From Cheiracanthium punctorium (Eukaryota > Arthropoda > Arachnida > Araneae > Cheiracanthiidae), in the NCBI GenBank assembly GCA_038373885.1, contig JAWZYV010013538.1, positions 1-64,000 of the forward strand: DNA of 64,000 nt, in the 5' to 3' direction. The translations under genes were made by a program, and so were the position numbers. Of this stretch, positions 1-40,867 are shown piece by piece. Position 1 is the first letter of the stretch; every line of letters begins with the position of its first letter. The notes below the pieces were generated by a model. The model was not told where the DNA came from. It worked only from the letters and a program-made list of their open reading frames with translations, and made no database searches.

Positions 1-2181
1 AAACAGTTTGTTCCCAAAAAATTATTTTTCTTCCTAGTTCTTGTAAAAACTTAAAAGGCAACCCTAGTAGTACTTTAGTGTGCGTATTTAAAATATAATT
101 TTTTTTTTCATTGCCTATAGATTCACGTAAATAATGGGGTAGGGGTAATAGTGTTCTTGAATCTCCATTGCTGGTGACTAAAACGCATCTTTTTAAGTAG
201 CTGTCTATTCTTTATTATCAATATAGATTAAAAAGTTTATATTAAAATTAAAAAAAATTATATTATTTTTGTAAATTTTATAAGTTAGTGCGTAACAAAT
301 ACAATTTACTATGAAGAATTGAAAAAATTTTAGTGCTATTGAAAATTTTTAACGGATATTTAAAGTAAAACTTACTATCAATCAAATTTTATAGTAAGAA
401 TGGACCCGCCCCCTACCACGAGAAAGTTTTACCTCCCACTATAAGCGGTTGGCCTATGACCGCTTATTATGGCACAATTATTTTTACTAAGCATCCATTG
501 CTTTTATTTTCAGAAATCAAGACCACCAGGTGACCGAGAGGTCTTGGACCTTCCTTAAACGTGACCATCCATCCCTGTGAATTATGCTGCGGATTTGACT
601 TGCACACGCCCATAATCCTCAAATCTCTTATGTTTGCCTCTGCCACGTGTTTTGAATGTAAACAAAGAGATTTACGCTTCAGTTTTAGGAGGGAAGTCCA
701 GATGATAAGAAACTCCAATTATAATTTTGCTTTCTGCTCCAGCATACTTTATACCTCAATACGTTATGCAAGAGACGTATAACATTTTGAATGACAGATT
801 ACTTTTGAAGACAGAGACTGCGAGACTGCAGGTTTTTTTTTTTTTTTTCATAAATAAACTAAACTAATAACGTAAGAGACTTGAAAATTTTTAGGGTGTC
901 TCTTCACAAGCTGAACTAATAAGCTCTAACAAATGATAAACTCCAGGGATCGATGCAGACTAAATTTGGATCCGTTTTACGGCCCCTTCTCAGAATTATA
1001 ATCGATTAAAACGCGCTCTTCACAAAAATGCTATCGATTAAAATAGCCCTTTTTTGGCATTTTACCCAATATGTTTTATTATTTATTTATTTATTTGTAT
1101 TTTTAAAGAAAAAACGTGACTTTTAAAAAATTGATATGAAAATTCACAAAAACGGATGTTGAAACTCACAAAAATTGACTTTAAAATTCACAAAAATAGG
1201 ACCCTGGAAAAAATTCTTGTATCGACCCCGGAACTTATGCCCCTTAAGAAATTTTCACTATGTATTATTTTGTGAAACGTAGATTTGCAGTGCTATTTCG
1301 TGTTTAAGAATATTTTAAGAAAATTCAATAAAATACACAGGTTTTTTTCTTCGTACCTGTGAATAGCACAACTTCTGAAGAGACAGCCTGAATTTGTCAT
1401 AGATCTAAATTGATATGTATCCGTCGAAACGAAGATGCGATGTTCCGTCTTATCTTATGGGGAAAATTATAGTATGTGCAAGCTTTTGAATATTTTGTCT
1501 CAGGTTTTCTTTTTCTCTGTCCAGCTACTGATTCGATGTATTCGTACCTTTTCTGAAATTTGGATATTTCTTCTGATACTGCTTTTAAGTTTGTAATGCA
1601 CGATGCAAAACTGGCTTTTCAAATTTCAGCTGAATATTACCTTAAGAAGTAAAATATATGTGTAAAAATCCAGGTTGTACCACTTCAAAATAAAACTTTT
1701 AACGCCACTAATTCAAAACAATGAAACATTAAAGCTAAAAAACGTTTAAAATTCACGCTGTTGGGCAGATAGTTTTGAAATTTTTCATTATTACGTAGAA
1801 AAATTAAAATGTCGAAAAAAAACTGAAAATTCACCCATTCAATAATTTTTAAGTGATTTTTCGTAATTTTCACCTCTCTCAATATCCGATGGTATAACGG
1901 TAGTCAAAAAAGTGAGTTATCATATAAGAGATCTTGTCATTTTGATGTCACGATTTTAAAAATGTGTTATGTGTTAGAAACTGAATTAGGTAAATCATGC
2001 TTCAAACTGAAAACTACTATTGAGCAACATAACTTCCTAATATTTATGACTTCAGCTAGAGATTATCAAGATTGAAGATTAACCTTTTGTCATGAGAACA
2101 ACAAATAAAAGATTTATCAATGCTTGAAATAAACGTTAAGCTAGTATTTCAATGGTTCTCATAAACAATGGACCAAGAATA
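1..2181. other. AT-rich intergenic sequence, nothing recognised
   Basis: No open frame in this stretch resembles a known protein and no splice-flanked coding block was seen. It is AT-rich with homopolymer runs, for example a T run near 832-850. Short open frames near 467-782 on both strands overlap one another and have no recognisable motif. Confidence 0.4.
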
Positions 2182-2880
2182 TACAGGGTGTCCCATAACT
2201 ATTTATACAAAATTTAAGGGGAGATAGGCCACATCATGGATCCCACAAGAGTGATCTGGGTGGACATCTGGGTTCAGGGCCTGGCCCTACGGAGTTTCAA
2301 TTATTAATTGTACCTGATACAAACTAGAAAAAATATTTTGAAAAAAATTTTATCGACCAAAATTTTAGAATACTGCAGCTAATTGTAAAATTTAAAATAA
2401 CATATTTATGATATAAACCGTTTATCATAAAAGTTTAGTAAAATTGTCATTGCGTGAGTTGTGTGAACTTGTGTGCATATTACCGCCATCCTTTCATCCT
2501 GCCAGGCCCGCCGAGAGAGAGGTACAGGAGTGGCAATTGCCCCCGGTCCCGGGCTTTAGGTTGAGCCAGTAACTGGATCGAAATTTCATCATGTATAAAT
2601 TTTTATTTTAAATAAGTCAAATATAACCATTATTAGCCATCCTAAAGTTAAGCTATTTTATTATGGAACTGAATGCACATTCATATGGTACTTCTCTGGT
2701 CATTTTTAAGTATCATAATTTTTATAAATATAGATTGGACTTTTAAAATAGTAACCATAATTATTCCAAATATTTGCAGGCTAAATTACATTCTAAGAGC
2801 ATGGGTAAGAAATAACAGTGCATTTTTAATGCAGCACATAGCTGGAAAAAAAGGGGGCATGGATCTGAAGGGAAAGCGTG
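2182..2880. other. Intergenic sequence with an isolated CAGGGTGTCCC-type end
   Basis: A CAGGGTGTCCC motif near 2184 matches the outer end of the foldback family seen at 35145 and 52696, but the following bases differ and no partner end was found. A GC-rich patch at 2495-2580 looks like the outer end of a DNA transposon (CAGGCCCGCCG), also without a partner. Nothing coding is recognised. Confidence 0.3.
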
Positions 2881-2965
2881 CAGTGATAGCTGGGTTTGAA
2901 CCCAGGGACTTATGGGTGGTAGAATGAGGCGCAATCCGGCTCGGCCAAAAGGTACCCATTCGAAC
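2880..2965 (-). repeat. tRNA-derived SINE, promoter part (downstream unit of array)
   Basis: On the minus strand this stretch carries RNA polymerase III internal promoter boxes. The A box (TGGCCGAGCCGG, complement of 2936-2947) fits TRGCNNAGYNGG. The B box (GGTTCAAACCC, complement of 2892-2902) fits GGTTCRANYCC. They are about 33 bases apart, as in tRNAs. The T-arm does not pair as a real tRNA would, so this is a SINE rather than a tRNA gene. It directly abuts a second unit at 2966-3360. Confidence 0.6.
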
Positions 2966-3360
2966 GGCCTTCAATTGCCGGGTGTTGTGTGCGCGGAGGT
3001 GATCGTGCCGCCACACTACTCACCCCCTAGAGAGTCAGTCGGAGGCTGACGAACGATGTTCCAAGCGTTATGGAACGCTGCCACTCGTTGTGGACTTTGT
3101 GAGGTTGCTGCCGCTCGTTGCGGACTTTGGGGAGGTCGCTGCCGCTCGTTGCGGACTTTGAAAGAGAGCCGAGCGAGAGATGGAAGAGGTCGGTGCTGGC
3201 GTCATCTGTCGTTATTAGCGAGAAGGAGAATGCATGTTCGTAGTCCGGGTCATCAATGCGGGGAGAGCGTGCGGCGAGCGCTGGGTTTGAACCCAGAGAC
3301 TTATGGGTGGTAGAATGAGGCGCAATCCGGCTCGGCCAAAAGGTACCCATTCGACCGGCC
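2966..3360 (-). repeat. tRNA-derived SINE, complete unit (about 395 bp)
   Basis: The minus strand has an A box (complement of 3327-3338) and a B box (complement of 3283-3293) identical to those of the neighbouring unit. Next comes a GC-rich body with a 30-31 bp minisatellite repeated about three times (3077-3162), then a conserved tail at 2966-3015. The antisense reading of the promoter part gives a short frame containing FWPSRIAPHSTTHKSLGSNP, which I recall from many predicted orb-weaver spider proteins; it is repeat-derived, not a gene. The unit ends at 3360, exactly where the Transib-like element is inserted. Confidence 0.6.
3077..3162. repeat. 30-31 bp minisatellite inside the SINE body, about 3 copies
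   Basis: The phrase GCTGCCGCTCGTTGCGGACT followed by TTGGGGAGGT recurs at 3077, 3107 and 3138, with few substitutions. It is GC-rich, unlike its AT-rich surroundings. Confidence 0.6.
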
Positions 3361-4469
3361 CACAGTGGAGTATTCGTATCAAAATCCTGGCTAAAAGTCG
3401 AAAATTTTAAATTTGTTTAAAAACAGTAATATATATGTTTTTGGATAGCCTAGTAACTGATGCATCATGAGATACATGTTTTTCGACCATAATTCATATC
3501 CAAAAGATGCAACACTCGGTTTAAAAGCAAGTTTCTTCATTTACGGCAAGAGATTTCAGCGTTTTCTATTATTTCGTCTTGCATTTTTTACGAGCTCTTT
3601 AAATTAATTTACTGGTTTGATACTTAGTATAATTGAAGTAAAATATATGTATTTTAATTATATGTATCTATTAGCTTGAAAAAATAATATGACTTTATTT
3701 TAAAAAATTGTAAACTTTTTTTTTCTAATTTTTTTTCAAAAATTCACATTTCAAAAAGCTTTTTGAAGGGGTGTCGCGGCTTGTCGCGCCCAATTTCAAC
3801 TATAATCGTAATTATTACAGTATTGAGTGTCTATTCCAAGAAAAAAATGTTCCCCCAACATCCACCATTTTTATAAAAAAAATTATTTATACAGCGCCAT
3901 TTTTATTTTTTCGATAATTTTTCGACGGGTGATCGCAAAAGCTATACAAACATACGCACTTCTATTTCTCATAAACTATAAATTATGTGCAGGTGTTTGG
4001 ATAAAGTTATATAAAATTCATTTTAGTCAAGATTTAACATCAGTATTTTAAATTCAGTATGTAATTTCTTATTTTTCTGATGTAAATTTGCTATAAGAAG
4101 AAAATTTCTACATATTCCAAAATTGCCCTTTCTTAGTCATGTAAATAGTCCCATCTATTTACAGCTTAGTTTTCCATTTATGTAGTAAATTGTGTTCAAA
4201 GCAAAAACTCCCCATTTTTGGTTCTCAAAGGTTGGCAACTGTGACTTCGGGTCATTGAAGTGTGAGTGTGTAAACAGAAAAGTGCTGGCTTGAAATAAAT
4301 TACTTTCTCCTCGAGCTTGGAATGAGATTTTATGGGTTTTCAAAGGGGGGCATCTTTTAAGCAGTGCCCTTATATGATCTGCTCTAGATAAAGGCCAATG
4401 AAAAAGAGCAAGCCTTATAGCAGTGAGACCCTATAACTTCTTCTTCCAGAGGGGTCCGATGGTGCTCTA

Positions 4470-4514
4470 TCTCTCTCTCTCTCTCTCTCAAAAAAAAAAA
4501 AAAAAAAAAAAAAA
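4470..4514. repeat. (TC)n followed by poly(A)
   Basis: A CT dinucleotide run is followed directly by about 25 adenines inside the Transib-like element. This may mark the tail of an old retroposed insertion or simple slippage. Confidence 0.6.
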
Positions 4515-4768
4515 GGAAGAAGGAGAAGAAAAAGAAAAAGAAAGTGATTCTGAGTGAAGACGAATATCAGAGTTCAAAAGAATCGGAATGAAAAAGTTAA
4601 TCGTCAGAAGTCATTAGAAAACTAAGATCCAAATAGTAACTACATTTAGAAAAGTGGAAAATCTGAAAACTTTTATGATAAAAATTGATTTATAGATAAG
4701 TAGTATTATATTTATAAGTATTATTATAAGTAAAGTATTACATTTATATATTTTTATTGTGGTTAAGG

Positions 4769-5095
4769 CAGCGTTTCTCAACCTGTGGGGCGCGCCCCCC
4801 AAGGAGGCGCAGAGCGTTTCCAGGGGTGGCACGAGAAAAACCAAAGAGCAAGTAATGATGCACGATTTTTAAAAATCGCCTAATTTATTCTCATTTTTAC
4901 TCAAAAATATATCCATTTTCGCTTAAAATGTTCATTCAAACTTTACTGATTACATTATTTTGTAGAAAATTCGACTAAATGTACATTGTTAAAGATTAAA
5001 AAACTGAATGTATGCTGAACAATGTGAAGGGGGGGGTGCTACCGTAAGTTAGCCTTTGTTGGGAGGGGGTGAAGTTAAAAGGTTGAGAACTGCTG
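4769..5095. mobile_element. hAT-type MITE (327 bp) nested in the Transib-like element
   Basis: The ends read CAGCGTTTCTCAACCT and, on the complement of the right end, CAGCAGTTCTCAACCT (14 of 16). They resemble Charlie-type hAT termini. A perfect 8-bp target duplication GGTTAAGG flanks it (4761-4768 and 5096-5103). It has no coding capacity. Confidence 0.8.
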
Positions 5096-5487
5096 GGTTA
5101 AGGCACGGCTATTTTCCTCACGGGAAGGTTTGCCTTGGCGGAGGGCTTTTTAAGAGACTCTAATGCGTATTCACGTGACATCTGGAGAAAATCGCCCAAA
5201 ACTCCAGACCGTTAGATCGACAGCCGCGTGTTATTACATTTATAAGTGGTATTATACAAAAGCAGTACTTCCCAGTAAGGGACACTCCCCGGACAAGACA
5301 TTTGTTAGAAACCAACTTCGAGTCGTTTAGCGATATATCGCCAAATTTGGCGACAGCACGCTTTTTTATATAATTTAAGAAGTATGTAATACTAAAAAGT
5401 AAGTCAAAAGTCAACAGTAATGATTTTAACGTTAAAACACATGAAAAATATTTTTGGCCAGGATTTTGACACAAATACTCCACTGTG

Positions 5488-5537
5488 CGGCCTTCAATTG
5501 CCGGGTGTTGTGTGCGCGGAGGTGATCGTGCCGCCAC
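5488..5537 (-). repeat. tRNA-derived SINE tail, split from its promoter part by the Transib-like insertion
   Basis: This block is nearly identical to the SINE tail at 2965-3015. Removing 3361-5487 plus one CGGCC joins it to the unit ending at 3360 in the same way that the units at 2880 and 2966 are joined. It is therefore the continuation of the array. Confidence 0.65.
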
Positions 5538-6237
5538 AGGTCCAACCTCTGATCCTGGGTCCAGGGCCCGTAATGGTATGTCGGGGTCATGGGTCACATA
5601 ATAAGAAATCAGAATCACAAACGCAGTCAAAACGCAGTTTTCACTTACCAGTTAATAATCAATTTGGGAAAAGTGTTGAAGTGTTCTAATTTCTTAACCG
5701 TTTTTCATAAACAACAAGCTCGTCATCAAAAATTTTATCCAGGAAATCAAATAGAATTTTAAGCTATATCAATTTTAGTCACACATTTTCAGAGAAAAAT
5801 GCATTAGTTTTTGGCGAACAATACTCGTAAAATTCACTAATATTTCAGCACTTGTTCCAAAGTGATTATTAACTAAGACGATTACTTTTCCGACCCCACA
5901 TGGCTATGTTATTCTTATTCCTTATTATTTGCCCTGCCTCCAGGGCCGCTTTTCCGATTAGGAAGCTAGGCACGTGACTAGGGCGCGAAACATTTGGGGG
6001 TGCATAAAACTGAAGGGCGAAAAAAAAGCATATTTGTACTTGCTTGAAGAACTTTAGATTTAAAAAACTGTCGTGCCCAAAGTTACGACAATGCTTCAAA
6101 CATGACGGGAGTGTACTCAGGTCTGTTGTCAATTTACCATGATAATTTAAAAAAAGGTGGGATGGAGGAGGCGTGGTGCCGTAAGGTAAGAAATGAACAA
6201 GAGTGGCCAAACCATGCCACTATCCTTCCTTGCGACT
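5538..6237. other. Intergenic sequence, nothing firmly recognised
   Basis: It holds a GC-richer patch near 5540-5600 and a CAGGGCCGCTTTTCC motif near 5940 that looks like a hAT-type end without a partner in the window. The frames on both strands (near 5420-5690 and 5869-6210) show no known motif. Confidence 0.3.
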
Positions 6238-6568
6238 CAAGGCCGTAGCCTGGATTTTTTTTCGGGGGGGGGCACAACATGTACGCTCATTATACCTATG
6301 TTCATACATATATAATTTATATATGTGTGTATATAAAACTATTAAATTTTTTTTTTTTGAAATTTTTAGAACATTTTATTTCTTTAAACGTTTAAAGGTT
6401 TTTTACTTTCCAAACATGTACTATGTAAGGAAAGTATTGCAATCATGAAAAAATTCGAATTCGAGATTTTGGTGTATTTACACGTTTTGAGGTCTTCTGA
6501 ATTCATTTATGCTATTTTTACGAGATGTATGTGTGTATGTGAGTGAACACGATAGCTCCTTAACGGGG

Positions 6569-7005
6569 CATTCGATTGAGCTCAAATTGGGTATATATGT
6601 TATAAACTACCATCGCAAGACCGGTATTGATTTTGGTATGTATAGGACTTAGTTTTTCTACAGGTCTACATAATGGCCTATGGGGAGAAATTCTTGAAAG
6701 TGCGCTAGCGTTTAAGCGGTACATTCGTTGAGCTCAAATTGGGTATACATGTTATAAACCACCATCGTAAGACCGGTATTGATTTTGATGTGTATAGGAC
6801 TTATAGGTTTTCTACGGGACTACGACAAAGATTTCTTTTACATTATGGCCTATGGGGAGAAATTCTTGAAAGTGCGCTAGCGTTTAAACGGCGCATTCGA
6901 TTGACCTTCAATTTGGTACATATGTTTGAATTATTCGTCGAATAAAATTTATTTAAATGCTTGGTCATGATCTTAATCGTAAGTGTTCGGAAAGTCGAGT
7001 GGAGT
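6569..7005. repeat. ~173-bp tandem repeat, first block
   Basis: Units begin near 6569 and 6720 and share the phrase CATTCGATTGAGCTCAAATT and a GCTAGCGTTTAAACGG end. The first unit has lost about 20 bases. The block ends with a conserved flank (6920-7005) that also closes the second block at 8070-8158. The period is not a multiple of three, so the short open frames that translate as ...LHYGLWGEILESALAFKRR... are by-products, not a repeat protein. Confidence 0.65.
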
Positions 7006-7574: not shown

Positions 7575-8158
7575 ATAGATGATTTTGGTGTGTATAGGAC
7601 TTATAGTTTTTTCTACAGGGCTACGACAAAGATTTCTTTTACATTATGGCCTATGAGAGGAAATTCTTGAAAGTGTGCTAGCGTTTAAACGGTACATTTG
7701 ATTAAGCTCAAATTGGGTATGCATGTTATAAACCACCGTCGCAAGACCGGTATTGATTTTGGTGTGTATAGTACTCATAGTTTTTCTACAGGGCTACGGC
7801 TAAGATTTCTTTTACATTATGGCCTATGGGAGGAAATTCTTGAAAGTGCGCTAGCGTTTAAACGGTACATTCGATTGAGCTCAATTTGGGTATACATGTT
7901 ATAAACCACCGTCGCAAGACCGGTATTGTTTTTTATGTATATAGGACATATAGTTTTTCTACAGGGCTACGACAAAGATTTCTTTTACATTGTGGTATAT
8001 GGGGAGAAATTATTGAAAGTGCGCTAGCGTTTAAACGGCGCATTCGATTGAGCTTCAGTTTGGTATATATGATTGAATTATTCATTGATTAAAATTTATT
8101 TAAATGCTTGGTAATGATCTTAATCTTAAGTGTTCAGAAAGTCGAGTGGAGTCACTCC
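7575..8158. repeat. ~173-bp tandem repeat, second block
   Basis: A partial unit at 7575-7693 is followed by units starting at 7694 and 7867 (spacing 173) and a final partial unit at about 8040. All are close copies of the block at 6569. The terminal flank 8070-8158 matches 6920-7005, so a segment of several units plus flank was duplicated within the element. Confidence 0.65.
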
Positions 8159-39458: not shown

Positions 39459-40867
39459 CACTGCTGGCCACCCAAATTGCAACACCAAGAAAAACAAGAG
39501 ATATCACAACAAAATTTATTGTGTAGATAACATGTTGACCAAGTAACAAATGATTAAATTTACAGCATTCTATGAAGCGTAGTTCCTGCCAAAATCAGTA
39601 CCCAGAGTAGCCGCCGTTGTTGGAGATCACAGCTGCCACACGCCTCGGCATTGATTCAAAGAGACTTTGAATGTGTTCTTGGGGTACAGCAGACCAAGCA
39701 GCTTCCACACGTTGCCAAAGTTGATCTGGTGTGACAGCTGGGGATGAACTCTGGGTCAGTCGTTGAGCAACCATGGACCACATGTTTTCTATCGGCGAAA
39801 GATCCGGAGAGCGCGCCGGCCAGGGAAGCAATTCAATCTGGTGATTGACGAAGAACCCTTGGACAATGCGTGCCACGTGTGGCCGTGCATTATCCTGCTG
39901 AAATATGGCTGTTGGCAAGCCCTGAAGGTAAGAAAGGACAACTGGCTCCAACACCTCGGAGATGTAGCGCTGGCTGGTTAAAGTACCGGCAATGCGTACT
40001 AGAGGAGTGCGAGAGAGATATCCGATACCGCCCCATACCATAATACCCGGTGCAGGACCAGTGTGACGGTGCATAATGCAGCTGTTCAGCATCCTCTCTC
40101 CACGGTGTCTCCAGACTCGAATCCGACCGTCGTGGTGTTGCATACAGAAGCGTGACTCGTCAGTAAAGAGAATTTCATTCCATTCTGTCGTCCACATCCT
40201 TCTTTCATCGCACCATTGGCGGCGGAGACGTCTGTGGTTCCGCGTCAGAGGTAGACAAAGCAACGGACGTCTTGCGGACAGACCATTCTGCTGTAAACGA
40301 CGTCGAATGGTACGCGCAGACACTGGATGATGCGTTACAGACTGAATCTGCTGTGATATGGTTCGTGATGTGACTGAGCGGTCCGTCACTGCCATGCGTA
40401 CAATCTGCCTGTCATCACGTGACGTGGTGCACTGAGGTCGATGCGGTCGATCACGTCTGTCCGTCGTACCCTCCTGCACCCAACGATCACATATCCGCAT
40501 CACAGTTGTTTGGTTTCGTCCAATACGACGACCGATTTCCCTGAAAGATAACCCACAATCTCGGTATGCCACTATCCTTCCTCTGTCAAACTCGGATACT
40601 TGATCAAAAGATGATCGTTGTTTCCTACGAGGCATAATTTATCGTTTTTTTGAAAAAAAAGCAAGAAAAACACAATTGCTGTACTTGAAACCGTCCAAAT
40701 CTCCAAGCCTTAAATAGCGCTTTGAGGTGGCGCCACAGGCGCGCTTGATGTGCGTCTGCGCTGAAATTCTAATCATTTGCATATCTCACCTCAGATAATG
40801 CATGTTGTAAATTTCATATTATTTGCATGCTTCCTTCAGGGTGTTGCATTTACGATGGCCAGCAGTG
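39459..40867 (-). mobile_element. Tc1-like transposon, full length (1409 bp)
   Basis: The inverted ends start CACTGCTGGCCA at both sides, continue with a diverged triplet block and then TGCAACACC. TA target duplications are at 39457-39458 and 40868-40869. It contains a single intact transposase frame on the minus strand. Length and architecture match complete Tc1-family elements, and the absence of any frame damage suggests recent insertion. Confidence 0.9.
39595..40635 (-). CDS. Tc1-family transposase, DD34E, intact
   Basis: A DDE transposase that cuts and pastes its own Tc1-like element into TA sites. The uninterrupted frame is 346 residues, the usual length for the family. Residues ~10-50 form the first helix-turn-helix (GLSFREIGRRIGRNQTTVMR), followed by a GRPR-like RPHRPQ hinge at 63-68 and a second helix-turn-helix at ~75-115. 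The catalytic triad is visible: Asp159 in LFTDESRF, Asp248 in QQDNARPH and Glu283 in SPIENMW. There are exactly 34 residues between the last two, the DD34E spacing of Tc1 proper rather than mariner DD34D. A Gly-rich VWGGIGY block is at ~200-206. The ATG at 40635 is the first in frame and lies about 230 bases inside the right terminal repeat. It is less AT-rich than its surroundings, as expected of a recently arrived coding element. All key residues are present, so it may be functional. Confidence 0.93.
   Translation of the reverse strand: MPRRKQRSSFDQVSEFDRGRIVAYRDCGLSFREIGRRIGRNQTTVMRICDRWVQEGTTDRRDRPHRPQCTTSRDDRQIVRMAVTDRSVTSRTISQQIQSVTHHPVSARTIRRRLQQNGLSARRPLLCLPLTRNHRRLRRQWCDERRMWTTEWNEILFTDESRFCMQHHDGRIRVWRHRGERMLNSCIMHRHTGPAPGIMVWGGIGYLSRTPLVRIAGTLTSQRYISEVLEPVVLSYLQGLPTAIFQQDNARPHVARIVQGFFVNHQIELLPWPARSPDLSPIENMWSMVAQRLTQSSSPAVTPDQLWQRVEAAWSAVPQEHIQSLFESMPRRVAAVISNNGGYSGY

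Follow-up and report, generated by a model that had tools for sequence, protein, structure and literature searches.

A non-autonomous Transib element with CACAGTG ends, its copies and its autonomous partners in the genome of Cheiracanthium punctorium

Introduction

A stretch of 64,000 bp from the spider Cheiracanthium punctorium (C8491:1-64000 in a genome of 2.53 Gb in 15,171 contigs; hereafter the window) carries, at positions 3361-5487, a segment of 2,127 bp whose inverted ends both start with CACAGTG—i.e. the heptamer of the recombination signal sequences (RSS) used in V(D)J recombination. To which superfamily does this element belong, and what moved it? A first-pass annotation, made from the sequence of the window without database searches, had assigned it to Transib, placed it in a tandem SINE array next to an unoccupied site, and predicted that an active or recently active Transib/RAG1-core-like transposase with the same ends lies elsewhere in this genome. 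The passages on Transib in PMC4411706 and PMC7204232 give a target site duplication (TSD) of 5 bp, the former also describing the ends as similar to RSS, and a table in PMC5704228 gives CGNCG as the target. A literature search with a 14-bp string from the end found no paper.

Results

The window element and its target site

The inverted ends (3361-3396 on the plus strand and 5452-5487 on the minus strand) agree at 33 of 36 positions, as first annotated, and the GC-only 5-bp TSD described for the element, CGGCC, is present in the flanking sequence on both sides (3356-3360 and 5488-5492). The element is read on the plus strand, the direction of the transposase in the autonomous copy described below.

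The insertion interrupts a tRNA-like SINE unit that lies on the minus strand, with its first part at 3261-3360 and its second, recognized by alignment to an uninterrupted unit, at 5493-5538. That uninterrupted unit, also on the minus strand, occupies 2870-3015 and holds a single CGGCC at 2965-2969. When the element and one TSD are removed, the joined parts align with it over 146 bp without gaps, at 95.2% identity. The register of the array is therefore restored by excision in silico, as had been proposed, but not its exact sequence: 7 of the 146 bases are not shared between the two units, and 2965-2969 is a paralogous rather than an allelic empty site. Similarly, "array" is a fair description and "tandem" a loose one, because the units do not abut but are separated by 245 bp (3016-3260; 391 bp from start to start).

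Matches to the Pol III A box (TGGCCGAGCCGG) and B box (GGTTCAAACCC), scored against the consensus forms, lie on the minus strand of the SINE unit, and copies of the unit are dispersed as in a tRNA-derived SINE. Specifically, a first look across the genome with the 146-bp unit yielded 2,219 candidates, 40 being scored, and among the 42 matches listed, 6 other contigs hold same-strand pairs of units whose starts are 231-620 bp apart. No tRNA was reported in the window by ARAGORN, or by Rfam at the gathering cut-off. The window also holds, on its minus strand (39595-40635), an open frame of 346 aa that by eye resembles a Tc1/mariner transposase.

Copies of the element share its ends and leave 5-bp duplications

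An exact search with the 31-bp end pattern returned 610 forward and 626 reverse matches genome-wide (1,236 in total), while the reversed pattern used as a control returned none in either orientation. With the first 100 bp of the window element as query, 970 candidates emerged. Scores were computed for 40 of these: the window itself, at 100%, and 39 further copies, at 99%, all of which were retrieved. These 40 were chosen by similarity to the left end of the window element, and the sample is thus biased toward young, intact copies and toward that end. Complete copies with both ends number 33. Among the others, L010 and L024 had fuzzy right ends that were rejected as spurious, while in L022, L023, L029, L030, and L046 the sequence examined showed a left end only, with contig ends cutting short L023 and L029. 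Of the 33 complete copies, 28 fall between 1.7 and 2.2 kb in length and one is at 1.6 kb; the longest hold further insertions. L017 (4,568 bp) was considered as an autonomous copy and rejected, as no closed frame in it exceeds 114 aa and it consists of a 2.1-kb copy with an insert of ~2.4 kb.

Exact 5-bp TSDs flank 29 of the 33 complete copies, whereas exact duplications of 3, 4, 6, 7, or 8 bp flank none; when flank matches of 1-12 bp were checked, only lengths of 1, 2, and 5 were obtained. Random re-pairing of the flanks (2,000 trials) produced on average 4.4 and at most 11 exact 5-bp matches. The 29 duplications follow the consensus CGNCG: the first base is C in 23 of them, the second G in all 29, the fourth C in 27, and the fifth G in 26. 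The 5-bp GC-rich duplications anticipated for other copies are thus present, and consistent duplications of 4, 8, or 9 bp, or ends extending beyond CACAGTG, were not found apart from a single additional base in three copies. Specifically, in L011 and L042 an additional C separates the duplication from CACAGTG, and L023, which has a left end only, likewise has an extra C before CACAGTG. Since L011 and L042 do not pair as closest copies, imprecise cleavage at the left end may account for this base. The two remaining exceptions among the complete copies have unequal flanks (L026, CTTCG/CGGCG; L047, CGGCT/CGGCG).

The 29 TSDs do not all represent independent targets, because L015 and L027 share one CGTCG site of one repeat. 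Repeat units in the window at 6536-6669, 6722-6847, 7688-7821, and 7861-7994 match the joined flanks of L015 with 0-2 gaps, and those of L027, also inserted at CGTCG, match the same units over similar ranges. Judged by these alignments, the four units are further paralogous empty sites for the two insertions.

The first 31 bp of the left end are identical in all 33 complete copies, which were selected by similarity to this end, and the commonest 31-bp right end is present in 28 of 33. A nearly fixed difference between the two ends lies at positions 15-18, which read CGTA on the left and TGTG on the right in 33 of 33 complete copies (again, a sample drawn by left-end similarity). Among the genome-wide pattern matches listed, one end reads TGTA at these positions.

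Autonomous copies carry a Transib transposase between the same ends

The transposase predicted to exist elsewhere in the genome is found at two loci. At C503:457916-462204 lies a full-length Transib of 4,289 bp that is bounded on either side by the 31-bp end pattern and a CGCCG TSD; the stretch taken from it (L054) contains one open frame of 679 aa (P0001). A second autonomous copy, of 4,174 bp with CGACG on both sides, lies at C13417; its right end is exactly the common end, and its left end has two differences in 31. The window element and the two autonomous copies all have CACAGTG at either end.

P0001 matches the structure 6pqn with E=9.2e-112 over residues 171-648 of 679, and amphioxus RAG1L (6b40) with E=9.7e-10. 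The entry 6pqn, named a putative DNA-mediated transposase, is the solved transposase of the Helicoverpa zea Transib. Across 15 aligned proteins, D272 is conserved in at least 90% and both D379 and E587 are invariant, and all three face identical residues in 6pqn; we take them to be the catalytic triad, from the alignment and by analogy with RAG1. A database search with the transposase found 720 related proteins. Among the 120 listed, the named ones all come from insects, and the best of these is from the stick insect Bacillus rossius, at 69% identity with 79% of the query covered.

Pfam reported no family in P0001, RAG1 (PF12940) included, and the Transib assignment therefore rests on the PDB match and on the homologues, one of which (P0018) scores 24.1 bits against a PF12940 cut-off of 25. 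PF26100 is precomputed for P0002, P0018, and others, and was not reported in our own domain scan of P0002 and P0018.

The frame at C13417 runs over 701 codons from stop to stop, and its last part is unlike that at C503, presumably through a frameshift. Over the 656 codons shared by the two copies, dN/dS is 0.38, a value indicative of modest purifying selection that is drawn from only 39 differences (16 synonymous and 23 non-synonymous). Further copies of the transposase, at 90-99%, have stops or frame breaks, or match in part. The deletion derivative appears far more numerous than its source: the exact end occurs 1,236 times, and transposase copies of nearly full length are few.

PF12940 served poorly as a probe of the genome, with no more than three weak hits (E 0.47-0.95) that all stayed below the cut-off, yet these led to a second Transib family. 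Its representative (L051:4367-7903, within L050/L051) is Transib-like, 3,537 bp long, and flanked by CGTCG on both sides; its ends, CACAGTGGGAAAAACGG, agree at 18 of 20 positions and begin with CACAGTG. The transposase of this element is broken, being split over at least two frames. With the L051 frame as query, 180 protein matches were obtained in the genome, C503 among them, and several Transib lineages are present.

The window element is a shortened C503-type Transib

The window element aligns with the C503 element in four pieces at 77-97% DNA identity: positions 1-987 with 1-1017 (86%), 993-1410 with 3418-3780 (77%), 1747-2056 with 3793-4102 (88%), and 1937-2127 with 4099-4289 (97%). The two are collinear save for a central gap and a nested insertion. 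The gap corresponds to a junction at 4347-4353 of the window (plus strand), where positions 1018-3417 of the autonomous element are gone, and the junction of L012, a copy of 1.8 kb, falls almost at the same place (1014/3413). The transposase frame (1568-3607 of the C503 element) lies within the lost ~2.4 kb except for its last part. What remains of the frame, at 4371-4466 on the plus strand, is a relic of residues 624-655 of P0001 (tblastn, 81% over 32 aa, E=2e-9). The absence of a transposase first noted for this element is thus correct in functional terms, although the relic of the C-terminus had been passed over. Collinearity and the 32-aa relic together identify a deletion derivative instead of an unrelated sequence that shares the ends only; by this alignment, the window element is a C503-type transposon minus ~2.4 kb.

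A nested MITE separates two lineages

Missing from the first-pass annotation is a nested MITE of 327 bp at 4769-5095, with CAG-type inverted ends (CAGCGTTTCTCAACC / CAGCAGTTCTCAACC) and an 8-bp duplication, GGTTAAGG, on its left (4761-4768) and right (5096-5103). Ends of the CAG...CTG type, as found here, are those of hAT elements. The length of the duplication is also that of hAT, 8 bp in a table of PMC9033116. The MITE is carried by 22 of the 33 complete copies, and 9 of the 11 without it have a single GGTTAAGG.

The copies also differ in their distance from the majority consensus of the 33: 18, the window copy included, lie at 0.14-1.4%, and the other 15 at 3.4-5.9%. Among the copies retrieved, the nearest relative of the window copy differs from it by 1.4%. 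The presence of the MITE and the consensus distances together indicate that one lineage gained the MITE and that part of this lineage spread recently. As such, of the original expectation of an "active or recently active" system, it is the recent spread that the similarity of the copies supports.

Discussion

We find it nearly certain that the window element is a non-autonomous Transib, which arose when a full-length parent of 4.2-4.3 kb lost ~2.4 kb while keeping its ends, was presumably moved in trans, and spread in a lineage that carries a MITE. The Transib identity first proposed is supported by the ends, by the CGNCG duplications (29 of 33 copies, with the permutation control and the published length), and by the RAG1-core-like DDE transposase found between the same ends at C503 and C13417, of which the window copy has the relic only. 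The sequence comparisons indicate an ordinary non-autonomous Transib of a documented kind, an assignment that is correct and well supported.

The likely course of events starts from a full-length Transib with one 679-aa RAG1-core-like DDE transposase, the interior of which was lost, probably by incomplete repair after excision. The shortened element, with both ends kept, would then have been mobilised in trans by intact transposase. We infer movement by the C503-type transposase from the shared ends, the duplications, and the established biochemistry of Transib and RAG. The same biochemistry suggests excision at the CACAGTG ends and insertion at a CGNCG-like target with a 5-bp stagger, which would yield the duplication. 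One lineage later acquired the hAT-type MITE and spread further, and the window copy, inserted in the tRNA-like SINE unit, belongs to it.

Could the CACAGTG start be coincidental, and the element belong to another superfamily with CAC ends (CACTA/Chapaev/other CMC) or to hAT? Starts of CAC or CA are common among DNA transposons and the nested MITE is itself of hAT type, but exact 5-bp CGNCG duplications, with none of 3, 4, or 8 bp, and a Transib transposase between the same ends led us to drop these superfamilies, and in our reading the autonomous partner refutes them; we consider this origin hardly conceivable. Descent from a RAG-like transposon with RAG1L and RAG2L, as opposed to Transib proper, is scarcely more credible. 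The heptamer is that of the RSS, and the transposase does match amphioxus RAG1L, but it matches Transib far more strongly. Furthermore, L054, in which only the first 284 bp of the C503 element are missing, holds a single ATG/GTG/TTG frame of at least 150 aa, and hence no RAG2L partner is seen among the intronless, mechanically called frames of at least 150 aa in this one autonomous copy. The end consensus given for protostome RAGL in the relevant part of PMC7204232, CACTWMCAAACKTYKBB, is also unlike the ends described here.

Another Transib family in this genome, such as the L051 type, could also be the mover instead of the C503 family. This is improbable, if less so than the two origins above: several Transib lineages do coexist, and L051 combines CACAGTG ends with a CGTCG TSD, but it is the C503-type transposase that the extended 31-bp end flanks. 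The best match to that end anywhere in L051 is 18 of 31, L051 being the one other lineage whose ends were compared, and its transposase is split.

The RSS nonamer has the consensus ACAAAAACC, to which a nonamer-like TCAAAATCC, found in both ends at an 11-bp spacer, matches at 7 of 9 positions. As 1.6% of shuffles of one end reach the same match, the likeness is weak, a hint at most. The heptamer at both ends is that of the V(D)J RSS, but the spacer is the same at both and so, unlike the V(D)J RSS, the ends have no 12/23 asymmetry. Asymmetric RSS-like ends and spacing have already been described for some Transibs, in the part of PMC8355894 that deals with them.

Among known systems, the closest is the Transib superfamily, typified by the Helicoverpa zea Transib (6pqn and related entries), with its RAG1-core-like transposase, CACAGTG-type ends, and 5-bp CGNCG TSD. 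Judged by the protein match, which is partial, the present family differs from that type. The RAGL transposons, including ProtoRAG, also share 5-bp TSDs, CAC ends, and a related DDE transposase, but differ in the points given above. The element resembles the Transib MITEs tabulated for Helicoverpa armigera and H. zea (PMC9033116), which are assigned to Transib, have a 5-bp TSD, and are without transposase; those measure 83-386 and 75-564 bp, as opposed to the 1.7-2.2 kb typical here.

A stronger reading would have a Transib system at work in this large genome at present, comprising at least one unbroken transposase, non-autonomous partners by the hundred, and symmetric "12-RSS-like" ends that combine the exact RSS heptamer with the nonamer-like block at an 11-bp spacer on both sides. 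We consider it possible but doubtful; if true, it would offer a living symmetric substrate like that envisaged for the forerunner of V(D)J recombination. Transib MITEs are already known from the tabulated elements cited above. A single genome displays a Transib system in its parts: autonomous copies, a derivative shortened by deletion, and a nested MITE by which two lineages can be placed in order of time. The findings are ordinary transposon biology unless the C503 transposase works, in which case it would provide a further relative of RAG1 with which to study the cutting of Transib ends that carry the exact RSS heptamer.
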